A stretch of DNA of 64,000 nucleotides from the NCBI RefSeq assembly GCF_001761465.1, contig NZ_CP017479.1, positions 3,658,001 to 3,722,000 on the forward strand. Reading direction: 5' to 3'. Within the stretch, counting starts at the first letter, position 1; every line of letters begins with the position of its first letter. Shown here piece after piece: positions 1,613 to 8,568 of this stretch. The translations under genes were made by a program, and so were the position numbers. The stretch comes from Flavobacterium gilvum. Lineage in GTDB: Bacteria; Bacteroidota; Bacteroidia; Flavobacteriales; Flavobacteriaceae. Below the pieces are notes generated by a model. That model was given only the letters and a program-made list of their open reading frames with translations, did no database searches and had not been told where the DNA came from.

Positions 1613-3115
1613 TTAACAATCTTCATCAATCTGAAAAGTGTTCAGGAAAATCACTGTTTTTTCTATATCATAATGAAGAATTCGGTCTTCTTTCACCAAA
1701 GGAACTTCTTCTCTGTAAGATTTTATAAACATTTCGATAAAATCACTTGATTGCAAAGGCCTACGGTATTCTATTGCCTGCGAAGCATTCATCAATTCGA
1801 TCGCCAAAATACGTTCCAGATTATCCAGTACACGCAAACATTTGGTAGCTCCATTGGCCCCCATACTCACATGATCTTCCTGACCATTACTCGAAACAAT
1901 ACTATCTACACTCGAAGGCGTTGCCAATTGTTTATTTTGACTTGCAATACTCGCAGCTGTGTATTGCGGAATCATGAATCCTGAATTCAAGCCGGGATTA
2001 TCAACCAAAAAAGCTGGAAGATTACGCAATCCCGAAATCAATTGATAGGTTCTACGCTCCGAAATACTTCCCAACTCTGCCAAAGCGATCGCCATAAAAT
2101 CCAATGCCAATGCCAAAGGTTGTCCGTGGAAATTCCCACCGGAAATAATTTGGTCGCTTTCGAAAAATATATTTGGATTATCGGTTACCGAATTAATTTC
2201 TGTTTTAAATACTTTTTTCACATAATCAATCGCATCTTTTGAAGCACCATGCACTTGCGGAATACAACGAAAAGAATAAGGATCTTGTACATGTGTTTTG
2301 GATTGTTCTATAATTTCACTGCCGTCCAGAAATTCTTTTACTCTTTTGGCTGTCGCAATTTGACCATGATGCGGACGTATATAATGTATCAACTCATTAA
2401 AAGGTTCAATTCTTCCATCAAAAGCTTCCAAAGATATAGTACCAATTAAATCAGCCAAATAAGAAAACTTGTTTGCCTTCATTACAATATGAGCACCATA
2501 AGCACTCATAAATTGGGTTCCGTTTAATAATGCCAAACCTTCCTTGGACTGCAACACAATTGGTTCCCAACCAAAATGCTTTAAAACTTCGGCCGAATTT
2601 TCTTTTTTTCCTTCAAACCAAACTTCTCCTTCGCCTAATAATGGCAATGCCAAATGTGCCAATGGAGCCAAATCTCCAGATGCGCCAAGCGATCCTTGAG
2701 TATAGATTACCGGTAATATATCATTATTATAAAAATCAACTAAACGCTCTACTGTTTTCAATTGCACTCCGGAATGACCATAGCTCAACGATTGAATTTT
2801 AAGCAACAGCATTAATTTCACAATTTCATTTGGCACTTCCTCCCCTGTTCCACAAGCATGGGATTTCACAAGGTTTTCTTGAAGTTTTGACAAATTTTCG
2901 TTAGAAATCTTAACATTACATAACGACCCAAAACCTGTATTGATTCCATAAATAGGTTCTGAATGAGAAGCCATTTTTGAATCCAAATATTTTCTGCACT
3001 TAATAACATTAGTCTTTACATTCTCCGAAAGCACTATTGATTTCTGGTGCGAAATAATCTCCTCCAAAACTTGAAAAGTGAGCAAGTCAGTACTTATATA
3101 ATGTACATTCTCCAT
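1613..3115 (-). CDS. hutH: Histidine ammonia-lyase
   Basis: This enzyme deaminates L-histidine to trans-urocanate, the first step of histidine catabolism. The MIO prosthetic-group triad Ala-Ser-Gly is present within GSLGASGDLAPLAH at about residues 145-147, and the active-site tyrosine loop YGINTGFG lies at about 56-63. I chose the ATG at 3115, giving 500 residues, the usual HutH length. The reading frame can be extended to a TTG at 3166, but that adds 17 residues unlike the family N-terminus. No other hut genes (hutU, hutI, hutG) are in the window. Tyrosine ammonia-lyases share the fold, but the 145-147 region and overall sequence favour HutH. Confidence 0.93.
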   Translation of the reverse strand: MENVHYISTDLLTFQVLEEIISHQKSIVLSENVKTNVIKCRKYLDSKMASHSEPIYGINTGFGSLCNVKISNENLSKLQENLVKSHACGTGEEVPNEIVKLMLLLKIQSLSYGHSGVQLKTVERLVDFYNNDILPVIYTQGSLGASGDLAPLAHLALPLLGEGEVWFEGKKENSAEVLKHFGWEPIVLQSKEGLALLNGTQFMSAYGAHIVMKANKFSYLADLIGTISLEAFDGRIEPFNELIHYIRPHHGQIATAKRVKEFLDGSEIIEQSKTHVQDPYSFRCIPQVHGASKDAIDYVKKVFKTEINSVTDNPNIFFESDQIISGGNFHGQPLALALDFMAIALAELGSISERRTYQLISGLRNLPAFLVDNPGLNSGFMIPQYTAASIASQNKQLATPSSVDSIVSSNGQEDHVSMGANGATKCLRVLDNLERILAIELMNASQAIEYRRPLQSSDFIEMFIKSYREEVPLVKEDRILHYDIEKTVIFLNTFQIDEDC

Positions 3116-3386: not shown

Positions 3387-3458
3387 TTACGCAATCTTAA
3401 ATTTGAGTCAAAATTGATTTTCAATTATTAAACTATTCATAAAAGAGAAAGATAAAGC

Positions 3459-3488
3459 TTTGTTTTTTGATAAAAAACTGTACTTTTG
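3459..3488 (+). promoter_or_regulatory. Promoter of the thr leader and thrABC operon
   Basis: TTTG at 3459-3462 and TACTTTTG at 3481-3488, separated by 18 bp, match both halves of the Bacteroidota housekeeping promoter (TTTG, about 19 bp, TAnnTTTG). Transcription would start around 3493-3495, just before the leader ORF ATG at 3500, leaving about 280 nt of leader RNA before thrA. Confidence 0.8.
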
Positions 3489-3499
3489 GAAAATCAAAA

Positions 3500-3598
3500 A
3501 TGAAAAATTTTAACAGTACATATCACCCTTCGATAACTGCCCAAATTTGGGTTGCTCTTGCTGTTACAACTACATCTACTACAATTACTACCCCTTAG
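3500..3598 (+). CDS. thrL: Threonine-operon leader peptide (32 aa)
   Basis: A short ORF from ATG 3500 to TAG 3596-3598 encodes a peptide starting MKNFNSTYHPS and ending VTTTSTTITTP. Seven of the nine residues 23-31 are Thr, with one Ser and one Ile. It lies a few bases behind a strong promoter and about 180 nt before thrA. This is the layout of a classical amino-acid operon leader, in which ribosome stalling at scarce Thr-tRNA controls the RNA fold downstream. A small hairpin, TACCCC/GGGGTA (3589-3603), encloses the stop codon. Mechanism is inferred; the Thr run and position are directly visible. The symbol is by analogy with E. coli thrL, with no homology claimed. Confidence 0.8.
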   Translation: MKNFNSTYHPSITAQIWVALAVTTTSTTITTP

Positions 3599-3755
3599 GG
3601 GTATACTTTATTACATATAATCCAATTTATTATTCTTTTTCGCAAAGAAAGAAAGTCATGGGTGTATAGAAACCTTTTGCATTTTATAAAATACAAAAAT
3701 CACTGCGGTTTCAAATACTGACAATCATATAAAATTAGTGATATTAAATCACTTT
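3589..3755 (+). promoter_or_regulatory. Putative attenuator region of thrABC leader RNA
   Basis: Visible elements are: hairpin TACCCC-TTA-GGGGTA (3589-3603) overlapping the leader stop codon; hairpin TTCTTT-TTCGC-AAAGAA near 3633-3651; GGGT at 3660-3663, which could instead pair with ACCC of the leader end; and hairpin AGTGAT-ATTAA-ATCACT near 3738-3754. None has a classic long U-tract, so whether control is by termination or by access to the thrA start site is unclear. Confidence 0.4.
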
Positions 3756-3774
3756 AAAACAAATATAAAATATC

Positions 3775-6222
3775 ATGAAAGTATTAAAGTTTGGCGGAAG
3801 TTCGGTGGCCAATGCAGAAAACATAAAATTAGTTTTAGATATAGTCATTAATAAAGCACAAGACGAAAAGCTTGTTGTTGTTGTTTCCGCCTTAAGTAAA
3901 GTAACCGATTTATTGCAATTGGCAGCTTCAAAAGCAACTTCCAACGATGAAAGTTTCAAAGATATTGTCACTGAAATTGAGAAAAAACATTTAGAAGCCC
4001 TCAAACAACTTATCCCGGTAAGCGAACAAAGTGGCTTATTAAGTCATATAAAACGTATCATCAACCATTTGGAAACATTGCTTGATGGGTGTTTTCTTTT
4101 GGGAGAATTATCTGCAAGAACTTTGGATACCATCCTAAGTTTTGGAGAATTATTATCTTCCTACATTATCGCCGAGGCTTTGAAACAAAAGCTAAAAAAC
4201 AGCAGCTACAAAGACAGCCGCGAATTGATTAAAACCAACAATCATTTTGGCAAAGCGGCCGTGAATTTTGACCATTCAAATCAATTGATTTCTGATTTTT
4301 TTGCATCAAATGAAAATCAGGTCGTTGTAATGCCTGGCTTTATTGCTACTTCAGAAGATGGAATCATAACGACTTTAGGCCGTGGTGGATCCGATTACAC
4401 TGCTGCAATCATAGCAGGAGCTCTAGATGCAACCGATTTGGAAATTTGGACTGATGTAAACGGAATGTTCACTGCTAATCCAAAAATTGTAAAACAAGCG
4501 CAGCCAATCGCCACAATCTCCTATCAGGAAGCAATGGAATTGTCTCATTTTGGTGCCAAAGTATTGTATCCGCCAACAATTCAGCCTGTTTTAAGAAAAA
4601 ATATTCCAATTTTTATCAAAAATACTTTCGAGCCGCAAGCCGAAGGAACAAAGATTTCTAATGATGTTTCGTCGCAAATAAATCCTGTAAAAGGAATTAG
4701 CCATATTGACAACATCACATTGATTACTTTGGAAGGCTCAGGAATGATAGGTGTTGCCGGATCATCTAAACGATTATTCGAAGTTTTATCACATGAAGGT
4801 ATCAACGTAATTTTTATTACTCAAGCTTCTTCAGAACACTCAATCTGTATTGGTATTTTGAACTCGGATGCCGACACTGCCGAACTTGCCATCAATAGAG
4901 CTTTTCAAATAGAAATTGCACAAAATAAAATAGATCCTTGCATTGTTGAACAAAAACTTTGCATCATTGCTTTGGTTGGTGAAAACATGAAAAACCACCA
5001 AGGTTTGAGCGGAAGAATGTTCAGCACTTTGGGAAAAAACAATGTCAACATCAGAGCTATTGCACAAGGAGCTTCTGAAAGAAATATTTCTGTTGTTATC
5101 AATGAAAGAGATGTCAAAAAAGCGTTAAACTCTTTGCACGAAAACTTCTTTGAAGAAAACATCAAACAATTAAATCTGTTTGTAATGGGTGTTGGAAATG
5201 TGGGTGAGAAATTCATTGAACAAATTCACCAACAAAAGAAATTTTTAAAAGAAAATTTAAAGATAAATCTAAGAGTTATCGCGGTTTCCAATTCCCGAAA
5301 AATGTATTTTGACGAAGAAGGAATGTCGCTAAAAGAATGGCAATCGCTTTTGGAAAAAGGAGAAACTGCCAATATGGAACAGTTTATTGCCAAGGTAAAA
5401 GAACTCAATTTACGTAACAGTATTTTTGTAGACATCACTGCCAATGCTGAAGTTTCTAAAACATACGAGTACTATTTAAAACAAAACGTAGCAGTTGTAA
5501 CCTGTAACAAAATTGCTTGTTCATCTGCTTATGATAATTATAAAAACCTAAAAAGTTTATCACGCAAATTCAATGCGCCTTTCTTGTTTGAAACCAATGT
5601 TGGAGCTGGATTACCTATCATTGATACTGTAAAAAACTTAATCGCTTCAGGCGACAAAGTACACAAAATACAAGCTGTTTTGTCAGGAAGTTTGAACTTT
5701 ATTTTTAATAATTTCAGTGAAAATTACAGTTTCCATGATGTCGTAAAAGAAGCAGGGGTTCAAGGATTTACTGAACCAGATCCAAAAATTGATTTGAGCG
5801 GAATTGACGTTGCAAGAAAAATTCTGATTTTGATTCGCGAAAGCGGTTATAAAATGGATATTGAAGATATTGAAAATAATTCTTTCCTTCCGGCAGCCTG
5901 TATGGAAACTAGCAATAATGATGCCTTTTTTGCTTCTTTAATAACTCATGCAAACCATTTCGAATCACTTTTGGCTGAAGCCAATCAAAAAGAAAGTCGT
6001 TTGAAATTTGTGGCACAATTTGAAGATGGAAAAGCGAGCGTAGGTTTGCAATTCATCCCAAAAGATCATCCATTTTACAATTTGGAAGGAAAAGACAATA
6101 TCGTTTTATTCTACACTGATCGTTACGTAGATCAACCATTATTGATAAAAGGTGCTGGTGCCGGTGCGGCTGTTACAGCCTCTGGAATTTTTGCCGATGT
6201 GATTAGAATAGGAAATGTGTAA
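3775..6222 (+). CDS. thrA: Bifunctional aspartate kinase / homoserine dehydrogenase I
   Basis: At 815 residues this is a full-length fusion enzyme. It phosphorylates aspartate and, after an aldehyde step made elsewhere, reduces aspartate semialdehyde to homoserine. The kinase domain starts at residue 1 with KFGGSS (5-10) and carries LGRGGSDYTA near 203. Two ACT-type regulatory segments follow at about 310-460. The homoserine dehydrogenase begins with the NAD(P) fold FVMGVGNVGEKF near 469 and contains NVGAGLPIIDT near 607 and GSLNFIF near 640. It heads the thrABC operon, 66 bp before thrB. Feedback control by threonine is usual for the ThrA type and fits the Thr-rich leader upstream. Confidence 0.97.
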   Translation: MKVLKFGGSSVANAENIKLVLDIVINKAQDEKLVVVVSALSKVTDLLQLAASKATSNDESFKDIVTEIEKKHLEALKQLIPVSEQSGLLSHIKRIINHLETLLDGCFLLGELSARTLDTILSFGELLSSYIIAEALKQKLKNSSYKDSRELIKTNNHFGKAAVNFDHSNQLISDFFASNENQVVVMPGFIATSEDGIITTLGRGGSDYTAAIIAGALDATDLEIWTDVNGMFTANPKIVKQAQPIATISYQEAMELSHFGAKVLYPPTIQPVLRKNIPIFIKNTFEPQAEGTKISNDVSSQINPVKGISHIDNITLITLEGSGMIGVAGSSKRLFEVLSHEGINVIFITQASSEHSICIGILNSDADTAELAINRAFQIEIAQNKIDPCIVEQKLCIIALVGENMKNHQGLSGRMFSTLGKNNVNIRAIAQGASERNISVVINERDVKKALNSLHENFFEENIKQLNLFVMGVGNVGEKFIEQIHQQKKFLKENLKINLRVIAVSNSRKMYFDEEGMSLKEWQSLLEKGETANMEQFIAKVKELNLRNSIFVDITANAEVSKTYEYYLKQNVAVVTCNKIACSSAYDNYKNLKSLSRKFNAPFLFETNVGAGLPIIDTVKNLIASGDKVHKIQAVLSGSLNFIFNNFSENYSFHDVVKEAGVQGFTEPDPKIDLSGIDVARKILILIRESGYKMDIEDIENNSFLPAACMETSNNDAFFASLITHANHFESLLAEANQKESRLKFVAQFEDGKASVGLQFIPKDHPFYNLEGKDNIVLFYTDRYVDQPLLIKGAGAGAAVTASGIFADVIRIGNV

Positions 6223-6288: not shown

Positions 6289-7209
6289 ATGAATGAAATA
6301 AAAATATTCTGCCCCGCCACAATCGCGAATCTTTCGTGCGGTTTTGACGTCTTAGGCCTTTGCTTGGCTACTCAAGGTGATGAAATGATTATCCGAAAAT
6401 CAGATGTAAAAGGTGTTCGCATCACAAAAATTGTTGGAGCCGATTTGCCTATGGAAACCGAAAACAATGTTTCCGGTGTTGCTGCTTTGGCAATGTTGGA
6501 AGAAGTGGAAACCGAATTTGGTTTTGAAATCGAAATCTACAAACACATCAAAGCGGGAAGCGGAATCGGAAGTAGTGCTGCCAGTTCGGCGGGAGCTGTT
6601 TTTGGCATCAACGAATTATTGGGAAGGCCTTTTACAAGAAAAGAATTGGTGAAATTTGCTATGCAAGGTGAAAAATTAGCCAGCGGAAATGCTCATGCCG
6701 ACAATGTTGCCCCTGCCCTTTTGGGAGGTTTTACATTGGTCCGAAGTTCAAATCCTTTGGATATTATCAAAATTGACAGCCCATCCGAATTATACGCAAC
6801 GGTGGTTCATCCTCAAATTGAGTTAAAAACATCAGACGCGCGTTCGGTATTGAAACAAACAGTTTCCTTGAAAAGTGCCATCACACAATGGGGAAATGTA
6901 GGCGGATTGGTAGCCGGTCTTTACACTCAGGATTACGAATTAATAGGTCGTTCATTGCACGACGAAATCATCGAACCTATCCGTTCTATGCTGATTCCGG
7001 GATTTGATTTAATCAAGCAAACGGCTTATGAAAATGGAGCTTTAGGATCGGGAATTTCGGGTTCAGGGCCTTCTATTTTTGCTTTAAGCAAAGGAAAAGA
7101 AAACGCCGACAAAATCGCCAAAGCCATGAGTGCCGTTTACGAAGAAATGAATTTGCCTTACGAAATTCACGTTTCCAAAGTGAATGATGAAGGGATAACA
7201 ATAATTTAA
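6289..7209 (+). CDS. thrB: Homoserine kinase
   Basis: Phosphorylates homoserine to O-phosphohomoserine, the substrate of ThrC. The 306-residue protein is a GHMP kinase: the N-terminal strand has CPATIANLSCGFDVLG, the glycine/serine ATP-binding motif GSGIGSSAASSAG lies near residues 87-99, and the C-terminal GSGISGSGPSIFAL near 253-266 is the third GHMP motif. Length is standard. It is the middle gene of thrABC, starting at ATG 6289 after an AT-rich spacer with an 8-bp tandem repeat. Confidence 0.97.
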   Translation: MNEIKIFCPATIANLSCGFDVLGLCLATQGDEMIIRKSDVKGVRITKIVGADLPMETENNVSGVAALAMLEEVETEFGFEIEIYKHIKAGSGIGSSAASSAGAVFGINELLGRPFTRKELVKFAMQGEKLASGNAHADNVAPALLGGFTLVRSSNPLDIIKIDSPSELYATVVHPQIELKTSDARSVLKQTVSLKSAITQWGNVGGLVAGLYTQDYELIGRSLHDEIIEPIRSMLIPGFDLIKQTAYENGALGSGISGSGPSIFALSKGKENADKIAKAMSAVYEEMNLPYEIHVSKVNDEGITII

Positions 7210-7278: not shown

Positions 7279-8568
7279 ATGAAATATTACAGTTTAAACC
7301 ATAATGCACCAAACGTTTCTTTTCAGGAAGCCGTAATACAAGGATTGGCAACCGATAAAGGATTGTATTTTCCTGAAACAATAACGCCTTTATCTCAGGA
7401 TTTCTTTAATAACATTGAAAATTTAAGCAACGAAGAAATTGCTTTTGAAGCTATTCAGCAGTTTGTGGGAGACGAAATTCCTACCGAAACTTTAAAACAA
7501 ATCATTGCAGAAACTTTGTGTTTTGAATTTCCAACTGAAAAAGTAGAAAAAGACATTTATGCATTAGAATTGTATCACGGTCCCACAATGGCCTTCAAAG
7601 ATGTAGGAGCCCGCTTTATGTCTCGTTGTTTAGGGTATTTCAACAAAGACAAAAAAGACAATAAAAATACTGTACTTGTTGCAACTTCCGGTGATACTGG
7701 AGGTGCAGTTGCTAGTGGTTTCTTAGGTGTTCAAGGTGTTGATGTCGTAATCCTTTACCCTTCCGGAAAAGTGAGCGACATTCAGGAAAGACAATTGACT
7801 ACTTTGGGACAAAACATTAGAGCGCTTGAAGTAAATGGCGTTTTTGACGATTGCCAGGATATGGTTAAAAAAGCCTTTTTGGACGAAAGCCTGAAACACA
7901 AAAACCTCACTTCGGCGAACTCAATAAATATAGCCCGTTGGTTGCCTCAAATGTTTTACTTTTTCTTTGCTTACAAACAATTAAAATCACAAAACAGACC
8001 TTTGGTTTTCTCTTGCCCAAGCGGGAATTTCGGGAATATCTGTGCCGGAATTATGGCCAAAAAACTTGGTTTGCCAATTGAGCATTTCGTGGCCGCCACC
8101 AACATTAATGATACAGTTCCAAGATTTCTGGAAAAAGGAAATTACGAACCTAAACCTTCCAAAGCGACTATTTCAAACGCAATGGACGTAGGAAATCCAA
8201 GTAATTTTATCCGAATTCAGGAATTATACAACAACGATTTGAATGAATTCAGCAAAGATTTTTCATCGTTTTCATATAACGACGAAGAAACTCTAGAAGC
8301 CATGAAAAACATTTACAAAACCGCTGGTTACATTGCAGAACCGCACGGTGCTGTGGGTTATTTAGGTTTGAAAAAAGAATTGAAAAAACACACCAATGCC
8401 ATTGGAGTTTTCCTAGAAACCGCGCATCCTATTAAATTTTTGGATGTTGTAGAACCTGCATTAAACATTCAGCTTCCTATTCCAACCCAAATTGAAAGTG
8501 TTTTGAATAAAGAAAAAGTAAGCGTAAAAATTTCAACTTATGATGAGTTGAAAGATTTTTTGAATTAA
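7279..8568 (+). CDS. thrC: Threonine synthase
   Basis: Converts O-phosphohomoserine to threonine with PLP, the last step of the pathway. The PLP lysine is in MAFKDVGARF (about K107), SGDTGGAVASGF binds the cofactor phosphate or substrate, and the C-terminal part has AEPHGAVGYLGL. I set the start at ATG 7279 (MKYYSLNHNAPNVSF), giving 429 residues as usual for the family. The frame is open back to ATG 7222, but those 19 residues come from a simple spacer repeat and do not resemble the family. Last gene of the operon; I see no clear terminator behind it. Confidence 0.97.
   Translation: MKYYSLNHNAPNVSFQEAVIQGLATDKGLYFPETITPLSQDFFNNIENLSNEEIAFEAIQQFVGDEIPTETLKQIIAETLCFEFPTEKVEKDIYALELYHGPTMAFKDVGARFMSRCLGYFNKDKKDNKNTVLVATSGDTGGAVASGFLGVQGVDVVILYPSGKVSDIQERQLTTLGQNIRALEVNGVFDDCQDMVKKAFLDESLKHKNLTSANSINIARWLPQMFYFFFAYKQLKSQNRPLVFSCPSGNFGNICAGIMAKKLGLPIEHFVAATNINDTVPRFLEKGNYEPKPSKATISNAMDVGNPSNFIRIQELYNNDLNEFSKDFSSFSYNDEETLEAMKNIYKTAGYIAEPHGAVGYLGLKKELKKHTNAIGVFLETAHPIKFLDVVEPALNIQLPIPTQIESVLNKEKVSVKISTYDELKDFLN

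Follow-up and report, generated by a model that had tools for sequence, protein, structure and literature searches.

A threonine-codon leader ahead of thrABC in Flavobacterium gilvum and its possible single-hairpin output

The window analysed here is a stretch of 64,000 nucleotides (nt) from Flavobacterium gilvum (contig NZ_CP017479.1, positions 3,658,001 to 3,722,000), taken from a 4.40-Mb genome in a single contig. It carries the threonine operon thrABC and, directly ahead of it, a short open reading frame (ORF) rich in Thr codons, which together with the RNA around and beyond its stop codon is the subject of this analysis.

The leader ORF and its relatives

An earlier note on this DNA had described a promoter, followed within a dozen bases by a 32-codon ORF with seven Thr codons among codons 23-31 and, about 180 nt past the leader, by thrA, and our translation and coordinates agree with it on each point (Table 1). 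The leader ATG lies 11 nt past the TActTTTG of a TTTG/TAnnTTTG pair, and the leader's 5' untranslated region (UTR) is, on this predicted promoter, probably very short; thrA starts 176 nt after the leader stop. TAnnTTTG is given as the Bacteroidota promoter consensus in passages of PMC9723704, and 38 of 39 genus leaders have it 6-12 nt ahead of their start. The peptide ends in VTTTSTTITTP before its stop, with Thr at codons 23, 24, 25, 27, 28, 30 and 31 and Ile at 29, so that, as in thrL-type attenuators, a run of cognate codons sits in a short ORF directly before the operon. Only 1 of the 7096 stop-to-stop frames in the window has at least seven Thr in nine codons, and it is the leader ORF. 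Searches of Pfam and NCBIfam with the 32-residue peptide returned 0 families, such profiles being poorly suited to short repetitive peptides. Rfam 15 (4227 models) gave no match in the window at the gathering score and, in 3400-3900, five sub-threshold matches of at most 19 bits to unrelated families.

We then read thrA loci in relatives, which all counts below concern. The genus sample comprised 61 genomes, 60 of them with a thrA relative; 42 loci shared 57% identity or more with thrA of the window, and the upstream regions of 41 were read (G021 was left out). For the family, thrA was found at E <= 1e-100 in 96 of 130 genomes and 48 loci from other genera were read; for the phylum, it was found at E <= 1e-80 in 108 of 148, and 40 loci outside the family were read. 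Leaders were scored as Thr + 0.7 Ile in 12 codons, and loci scoring below 5 were excluded from the counts of terminators and of the P1 and AUAU elements described below. The comparison with relatives that the earlier note had proposed as a check showed the ORF and its Thr run at 39 of 41 genus loci, and no such leader was found at the nine loci read of a diverged thrA paralogue (~36% identical). Among other genera of the family 34 of 48 loci passed the score (14 excluded), as did 19 of 40 outside the family (21 excluded); a leader with P1 is visible at some of the excluded loci (for example, L055, L062, L066, L067 and L078), with none at others.

In a further, organism-named set, 72 of 80 loci passed, from the genera Flavobacterium, Kordia, Lutibacter, Polaribacter, Arenibacter, Flagellimonas, Niastella, Longitalea and Solitalea; some species may be present both here and in the unnamed set, so the two are not independent. 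Seven of the 80 scored low (L225, L232, L239, L250, L263, L264 and L267), with P1 present in three of these (L225, L263 and L264), and at L269 the start was not found. One named contig, labelled as a metagenome-assembled genome of Candidatus Nitrotoga (L238), has a thrA 70% identical to that of the window and a Flavobacterium-type leader with P1, and is probably a mislabelled or mixed bin.

Because only one frame in 7096 is so Thr-rich, and because the ORF, its Thr run and P1 recur in relatives, the leader is beyond chance. With the conservation in relatives supporting the translation-sensing leader proposed by the earlier note, we regard the ORF at 3500-3598 as very probably encoding a leader peptide of thrABC that senses threonine (and isoleucine).

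Table 1 Features of the thr leader region and operon (window coordinates)
Feature	Position	Strand	Details
Predicted Bacteroidota sigma-A promoter	3459..3488	+	TTTG 3459-3462, 18 nt, TActTTTG 3481-3488
Leader peptide ORF, 32 aa	3500..3598	+	MKNFNSTYHPSITAQIWVALAVTTTSTTITTP followed by a stop; translation of sequence
ORF-internal domain, P00 enclosing P0	3511..3566	+	P00, 3511-3518 with 3559-3566; P0, 3539-3543 with 3548-3552; predicted fold and covariation
Hairpin P1	3589..3603	+	UACCCC-UUA-GGGGUA; 98.9% pairing over the cells of 30 genus sequences
Conserved CATATAATCC	3614..3623	+	ATAT begins 13 nt past last G of P1
Hairpin P3	3629..3656	+	U-rich 5' arm, purine-rich 3' arm; folds better than shuffles
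thrA, bifunctional aspartate kinase/homoserine dehydrogenase I	3775..6222	+	NCBIfam NF006959, 1058 bits, cut-off 726
thrB, homoserine kinase	6289..7209	+	NCBIfam NF002288, 413 bits, cut-off 194
thrC, threonine synthase	7279..8568	+	TIGR00260, 310.6 bits, cut-off 167.1, scanned from 7264

The reading frame of thrC is open from 7222, and the ATG at 7279 is by inference the likelier start. Among named relatives the closest thrA is that of Flavobacterium aquicola (92% identity, in a scan that may omit records very near the window). Divergent from the operon, an aromatic amino acid lyase gene (PF00221, histidine ammonia-lyase-like) occupies 1613-3109 on the minus strand.

Hairpin P1, the CATAT site and terminators

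The leader stop, TAG at 3596-3598, supplies two bases of the P1 loop and the first base of its 3' arm, and the last Thr codon (ACC) sits in the 5' arm. Within the genus (30 sequences) four of the six pairs are invariant, and between lineages the stem varies with compensation, as TACCCT/AGGGTA (L014), CAACCC/GGGTTG (L101, L102 and the Niastella and Longitalea loci) and ACGGG/CCCGT (L113 and L117). The last Thr codon is ACC in all 39 genus leaders, compared to 29 of 371 other Thr codons in the same leaders; in other taxa (n = 48) it is ACC in 43, ACG in 4 and ACT in 1, and two of the four ACG loci are the ones with the ACGGG/CCCGT stem. This bias, and the matching change of codon and stem, indicate that nucleotides, and not the peptide alone, are under selection.

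By a rule requiring a hairpin near the stop, P1 was found in 79 of the 92 leaders that passed the score, the named set being scanned over a wider stretch around the stop. The earlier note had placed the stop codon within the hairpin at 3589-3603, which is true of the window and, for the P1 loop, of most of the genus; among relatives, however, the stop moves while P1 stays. It lies past the 3' arm in L011, L013, L034-L039 and most other Flavobacteriaceae leaders with P1, and far downstream in L020 and L033. In Flavobacterium johnsoniae CI04 (L225) the P1 loop reads UUC for UUA, by which the stop is lost and a cUUCGg-like loop gained; the leader ORF there has 61 codons and runs through P1 and P3, with P1 retained. 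Across these relatives the conserved core is the Thr run plus P1 rather than a stop inside the hairpin.

Beyond P1, AUAU starts 8-14 nt past the last G/C of the hairpin in 75 of 79 leaders versus 9.3 expected from mononucleotide shuffles (36/37 in the genus, 29/31 in the rest of the family and 10/11 beyond the family; expected 6.0, 2.6 and 0.7, respectively) and in 67 of 72 leaders of the named set, with variable bases in between. The pattern ACCCC-N3-4-GGGGT-N7-11-CATAT has 36 sites in the 61 genus genomes, and its reversed control has 0. Judged by coordinates, 35 of the 36 directly precede thrA; the remaining site (L273) adjoins a terminator and has no leader. The P1-AUAU spacing would fit the geometry of a hairpin-stabilised pause, with the hairpin ~11-12 nt behind the pause site. 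Two or more classes of the phylum have this arrangement, which occurs in families f1, f2, f4 and f8 of the window's class and in f21 outside it, and a canonical terminator takes its place in some families.

Past P1 there is no enrichment of T in 44 diverse leaders; in terms of base composition only, T at positions 2-9, as considered for a NusG (TTNTTT) pause, is close to the background of 0.38. A plain intrinsic terminator at P1 was rejected on this ground, though the window's P1 passes a loose rule. We also rejected an outer helix, P4, that would enclose P3 with CATAT in one of its arms: 85.8% of cells pair, yet two-sided changes are absent and shuffles do as well, so pairing does not account for the conservation of CATAT. 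An element shared with other operons was likewise rejected: CATATMRTCC occurs 22 times in the genome, and at 20 of the 21 other sites, inspected by eye over the 110 nt before each, no P1-like hairpin or codon run was seen. Past P3, GG(A/G)U(A/G)(U/C)AUA (window 3660-3668) recurs in the majority of genus leaders. Covariation gives no support to its potential pairing with CATATAATCC around P3. The leader ORF contains TACATATCACCC (3517-3528) and the post-P1 motif is ACATATAATCC (3613-3623); a similar ACATA motif is found inside the ORF of many relatives.

The earlier note had reported no obvious U-tract terminator. This holds by a strict rule, which demands a G-C outer pair, three or more G-C pairs, and six or more T in the next eight bases with three or more in the first four, with a terminator in 0 of 39 genus thr leaders, while the loose rule lists P1 itself. 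The strict rule replaced a looser first script and was chosen once that script was seen to flag 37 of the 39 thr leaders in the genus, 65 of all 127 thr loci and 28 of 30 his loci; the genus matches of the looser script were P1, hairpins of the ORF and matches further upstream. As a positive control, his leaders of the same genus were run through the strict-rule script, which found a terminator in 29 of 29 (one of the 30 loci had no His run). Side by side with these, in the window's own genome, the his leader MLSIQLHHHHSHNCSQAMC (L161; G000:C1 near 2817557-2818021, minus strand) and the ilv leader MKHITNVLLVLSVIVVITYEKGLV (L162; near 2745570, plus strand) each have a GC hairpin and a T-tract.

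Elsewhere in the family 1 of 34 thr leaders has a strict terminator, namely P1 of L064; outside the family 5 of 19 do, and none of the five has P1. Across the 92 leaders, 78 have P1 only, 5 a terminator only, 1 both (P1 itself) and 8 neither, and P1 and terminator are nearly mutually exclusive; in 5 of the 8 with neither (L020, L033, L068, L090 and L095), an ACCC/GGG hairpin was missed by the stop-near rule. Of the 72 leaders in the named set, 3 pass the strict rule, L253 and L268 via a P1-like hairpin and L213 elsewhere.

Two further structures are conserved. The P00/P0 domain lies directly upstream of the Thr run; P00, P0 and P1 together have 93.5% of cells paired and eight pairs changed on both sides in the 30 genus sequences, a covariation exceeding all 500 shuffles. 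P00 and P0 account for seven of the eight two-sided changes, and P1 hardly varies within the genus. Compared with synonymous-codon controls, the leader ORF folds better, with a mean z of -1.40 in 91 leaders (54 below -1). The P3 region gives a mean z against shuffles of -1.82 in 30 genus leaders and -1.36 in 88 leaders (window, -0.9), with no U-tract after P3, and in the post-stop region of the 30 genus sequences RNAalifold predicted P1 only. Between P3 and thrA, an AUCRCU/AGYGAU pairing (3699-3704 with 3737-3742) with apparent compensatory change is specific to a clade of the window and its close relatives L004 and L005, and L024 and L026-L028 have additional sequence in which CAGTTTTCAGTTTCAGTTCACAG-like stretches occur, perhaps a repeat dispersed in Flavobacterium.

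A candidate output mechanism and its rivals

Taken together, a leader-peptide sensor and a single-hairpin output lacking a terminator/antiterminator pair make up the reading that we put forward tentatively, with confidence somewhat short of even. On the output side, what relatives keep is the hairpin over the last Thr codon and, about 11 nt past it, a second site; direct competition between ribosome and P1 is the simplest reading. RNA polymerase would transcribe P1 and then halt ~11 nt further on at the conserved CATAT, where P1 in the exit channel would keep it halted and favour release, perhaps with NusA, NusG or Rho. When threonine is ample, the leader ribosome would pass the Thr codons, reach the stop in or beside P1 and depart, whereupon P1 would form and the transcript would be abandoned; when threonine is scarce, the ribosome would be parked on Thr codons abutting and overlapping the 5' arm, P1 would be blocked and polymerase would proceed into thrA. 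Here we infer translation of the ORF, pausing, premature release, the involvement of factors and the direction of the response. According to passages of PMC12288461, a pause can last about ten times as long when a hairpin lies 11-12 nt back from the RNA 3' end. The mechanism may well differ from that of E. coli, as the earlier note had suggested, given a conserved leader without a canonical terminator. That it would extend to a Bacteroidota-wide mode of attenuation without terminator or antiterminator, in which the ribosome directly opens or frees one hairpin, formed over its own last Thr codon and mostly its stop codon, that acts on polymerase at CATAT, is a rather more doubtful possibility.

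Several observations weigh against this single-hairpin reading. No Thr leader was found upstream of thrA at two of the 41 genus loci read (L031 and L040), which suggests that the leader can be lost. The P1 stem is short, and CATAT is not known as a pause consensus. Three P1-like hairpins (L064, L253 and L268) pass the strict terminator rule, and the window's P1 is terminator-like by a looser, public-style rule, with five T in the eight bases after it; P1 of the window may be a weak intrinsic terminator. In F. johnsoniae CI04 the leader ribosome would translate across both P1 and P3. Finally, P3 and P00/P0 are conserved yet have no certain role in the proposed model.

The most serious rival, though an unlikely one, is classical four-segment attenuation, following the I:II, II:III, III:IV scheme in passages of PMC1183508. 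P1 would then be the 1:2 hairpin; GGGGUAUA would form the 2:3 pairing with a U-rich stretch, and the 3:4 hairpin, either P3 or an extended P4-P3, would be a weak terminator to which Bacteroidota polymerase nevertheless responds. In a simpler form, P1 itself would be a weak intrinsic terminator. The better-than-shuffled folding of the P3 region and the passing of the loose rule by P1 fit this scheme, and an unguided scan of the genus alignment did find a 9-pair GGGGUAUA/UAUACUUUU helix; no cell of that helix, however, is changed on both sides. The stop codon lies between segments 1 and 2, as in the E. coli trp leader. When 2:3 pairing was sought between GGGG plus 5 nt and the next 60 nt in 88 leaders, the mean z was 0.14, no better than shuffles, which gives that pairing no support; nor does the earlier suggestion that ribosome position could set which fold forms gain support from it in the sense of competing folds. 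P3 moreover has no U-tract, unlike the terminators of his leaders in the genus, and the 44 diverse leaders have no excess of T past P1.

Rho-dependent attenuation, which we consider improbable, would have Rho load on a C-rich, G-poor stretch past P1 once the ribosome has gone and stop a polymerase paused at CATAT, unless a stalled ribosome or an alternative fold prevented it. Leader-peptide systems using Rho occur elsewhere, strict-rule terminators are lacking, and from 34 nt past P1 the UTR has a C fraction of 0.18 and a G fraction of 0.05 in the 44 diverse leaders; in Flavobacterium, however, the stretch is short and contains P3, and a ribosome stalled far upstream would expose it too. Translational control appears similarly improbable: the leader ribosome would alter folding at the thrA start or supply ribosomes to it, while transcription continued. 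It would account for the absence of a strict-rule U-tract terminator, P3 lies near the thrA start in species with a short UTR, and mRNA structure tunes initiation in F. johnsoniae according to passages of PMC6847099. The distance from P1 to thrA, however, ranges from 60 to 263 nt, with additional sequence in several species, and control of transcription therefore fits better than control at the thrA start; the genus scan, which reached at most 80 nt past P1, found no conserved pairing with that start. A fortuitous or non-regulatory ORF is scarcely credible in view of the conservation of the leader and the joint covariation of P00, P0 and P1, unmatched in 500 shuffles.

Relation to known leaders

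Ribosome-mediated attenuation is known mainly from Proteobacteria, where two competing folds end in a U-tract terminator. Many members of the phylum studied here seem to retain the Thr-codon sensor while altering the output. The his leaders of that genus still have the textbook output, and so nature supplies a clean contrast of two output modules coupled to one kind of sensor; the thr leader makes pausing, termination and translation coupling testable in bacteria that hardly use Shine-Dalgarno sequences.

Leader-peptide attenuation in flavobacteria is already known in general terms: PMC9723704 describes 'strong clues' for it upstream of amino-acid biosynthesis operons in Flavobacterium psychrophilum. 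The words thrA and threonine are absent from the main text of that paper, and its passages on attenuation contain no terminator-free mechanism. Among the matches listed, a literature search that covered neither supplements nor most subscription papers gave no Bacteroidota thr leader or P1-CATAT output; older computational surveys of attenuators may already include a Bacteroidota thr leader. Bacteroid-trp RNA (RF01692; Weinberg et al. 2010, PMC2864571) is likewise a cis-regulatory motif of Bacteroidetes, with a name that links it to trp, and the window does not match it at the gathering score. Its function is that of a trp leader. In the hairpin-stabilised pause of PMC12288461, as its relevant passages describe it, the duplex lies 11-12 nt behind the RNA 3' end, and the P1-CATAT spacing, known here from sequence, is similar.

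Closer comparisons come from leaders of the same kind. The his and ilv leaders of the same genome likewise place a run of cognate codons in a short ORF before a biosynthetic operon; they have a canonical GC hairpin with a U-tract, whereas the thr leader has none by the same rule. Family f3, of the same class, has Thr/Ile-rich ORFs before thrA as in the window, yet all four of its leaders that were read (L112, L116, L123 and L127) have canonical terminators and no P1. Like E. coli thrL, the Flavobacterium leader is a short ORF immediately ahead of thrABC in which Thr and Ile codons form a run, with RNA hairpins after it. It differs in being from another phylum, in lacking both a U-tract hairpin by the strict rule and a supported antiterminator pairing, and in having a conserved CATAT past the stop hairpin and, probably, a very short 5' UTR. 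The use of Thr codons, which both leaders have in common, is treated for the E. coli thr leader in passages of PMC1183508.

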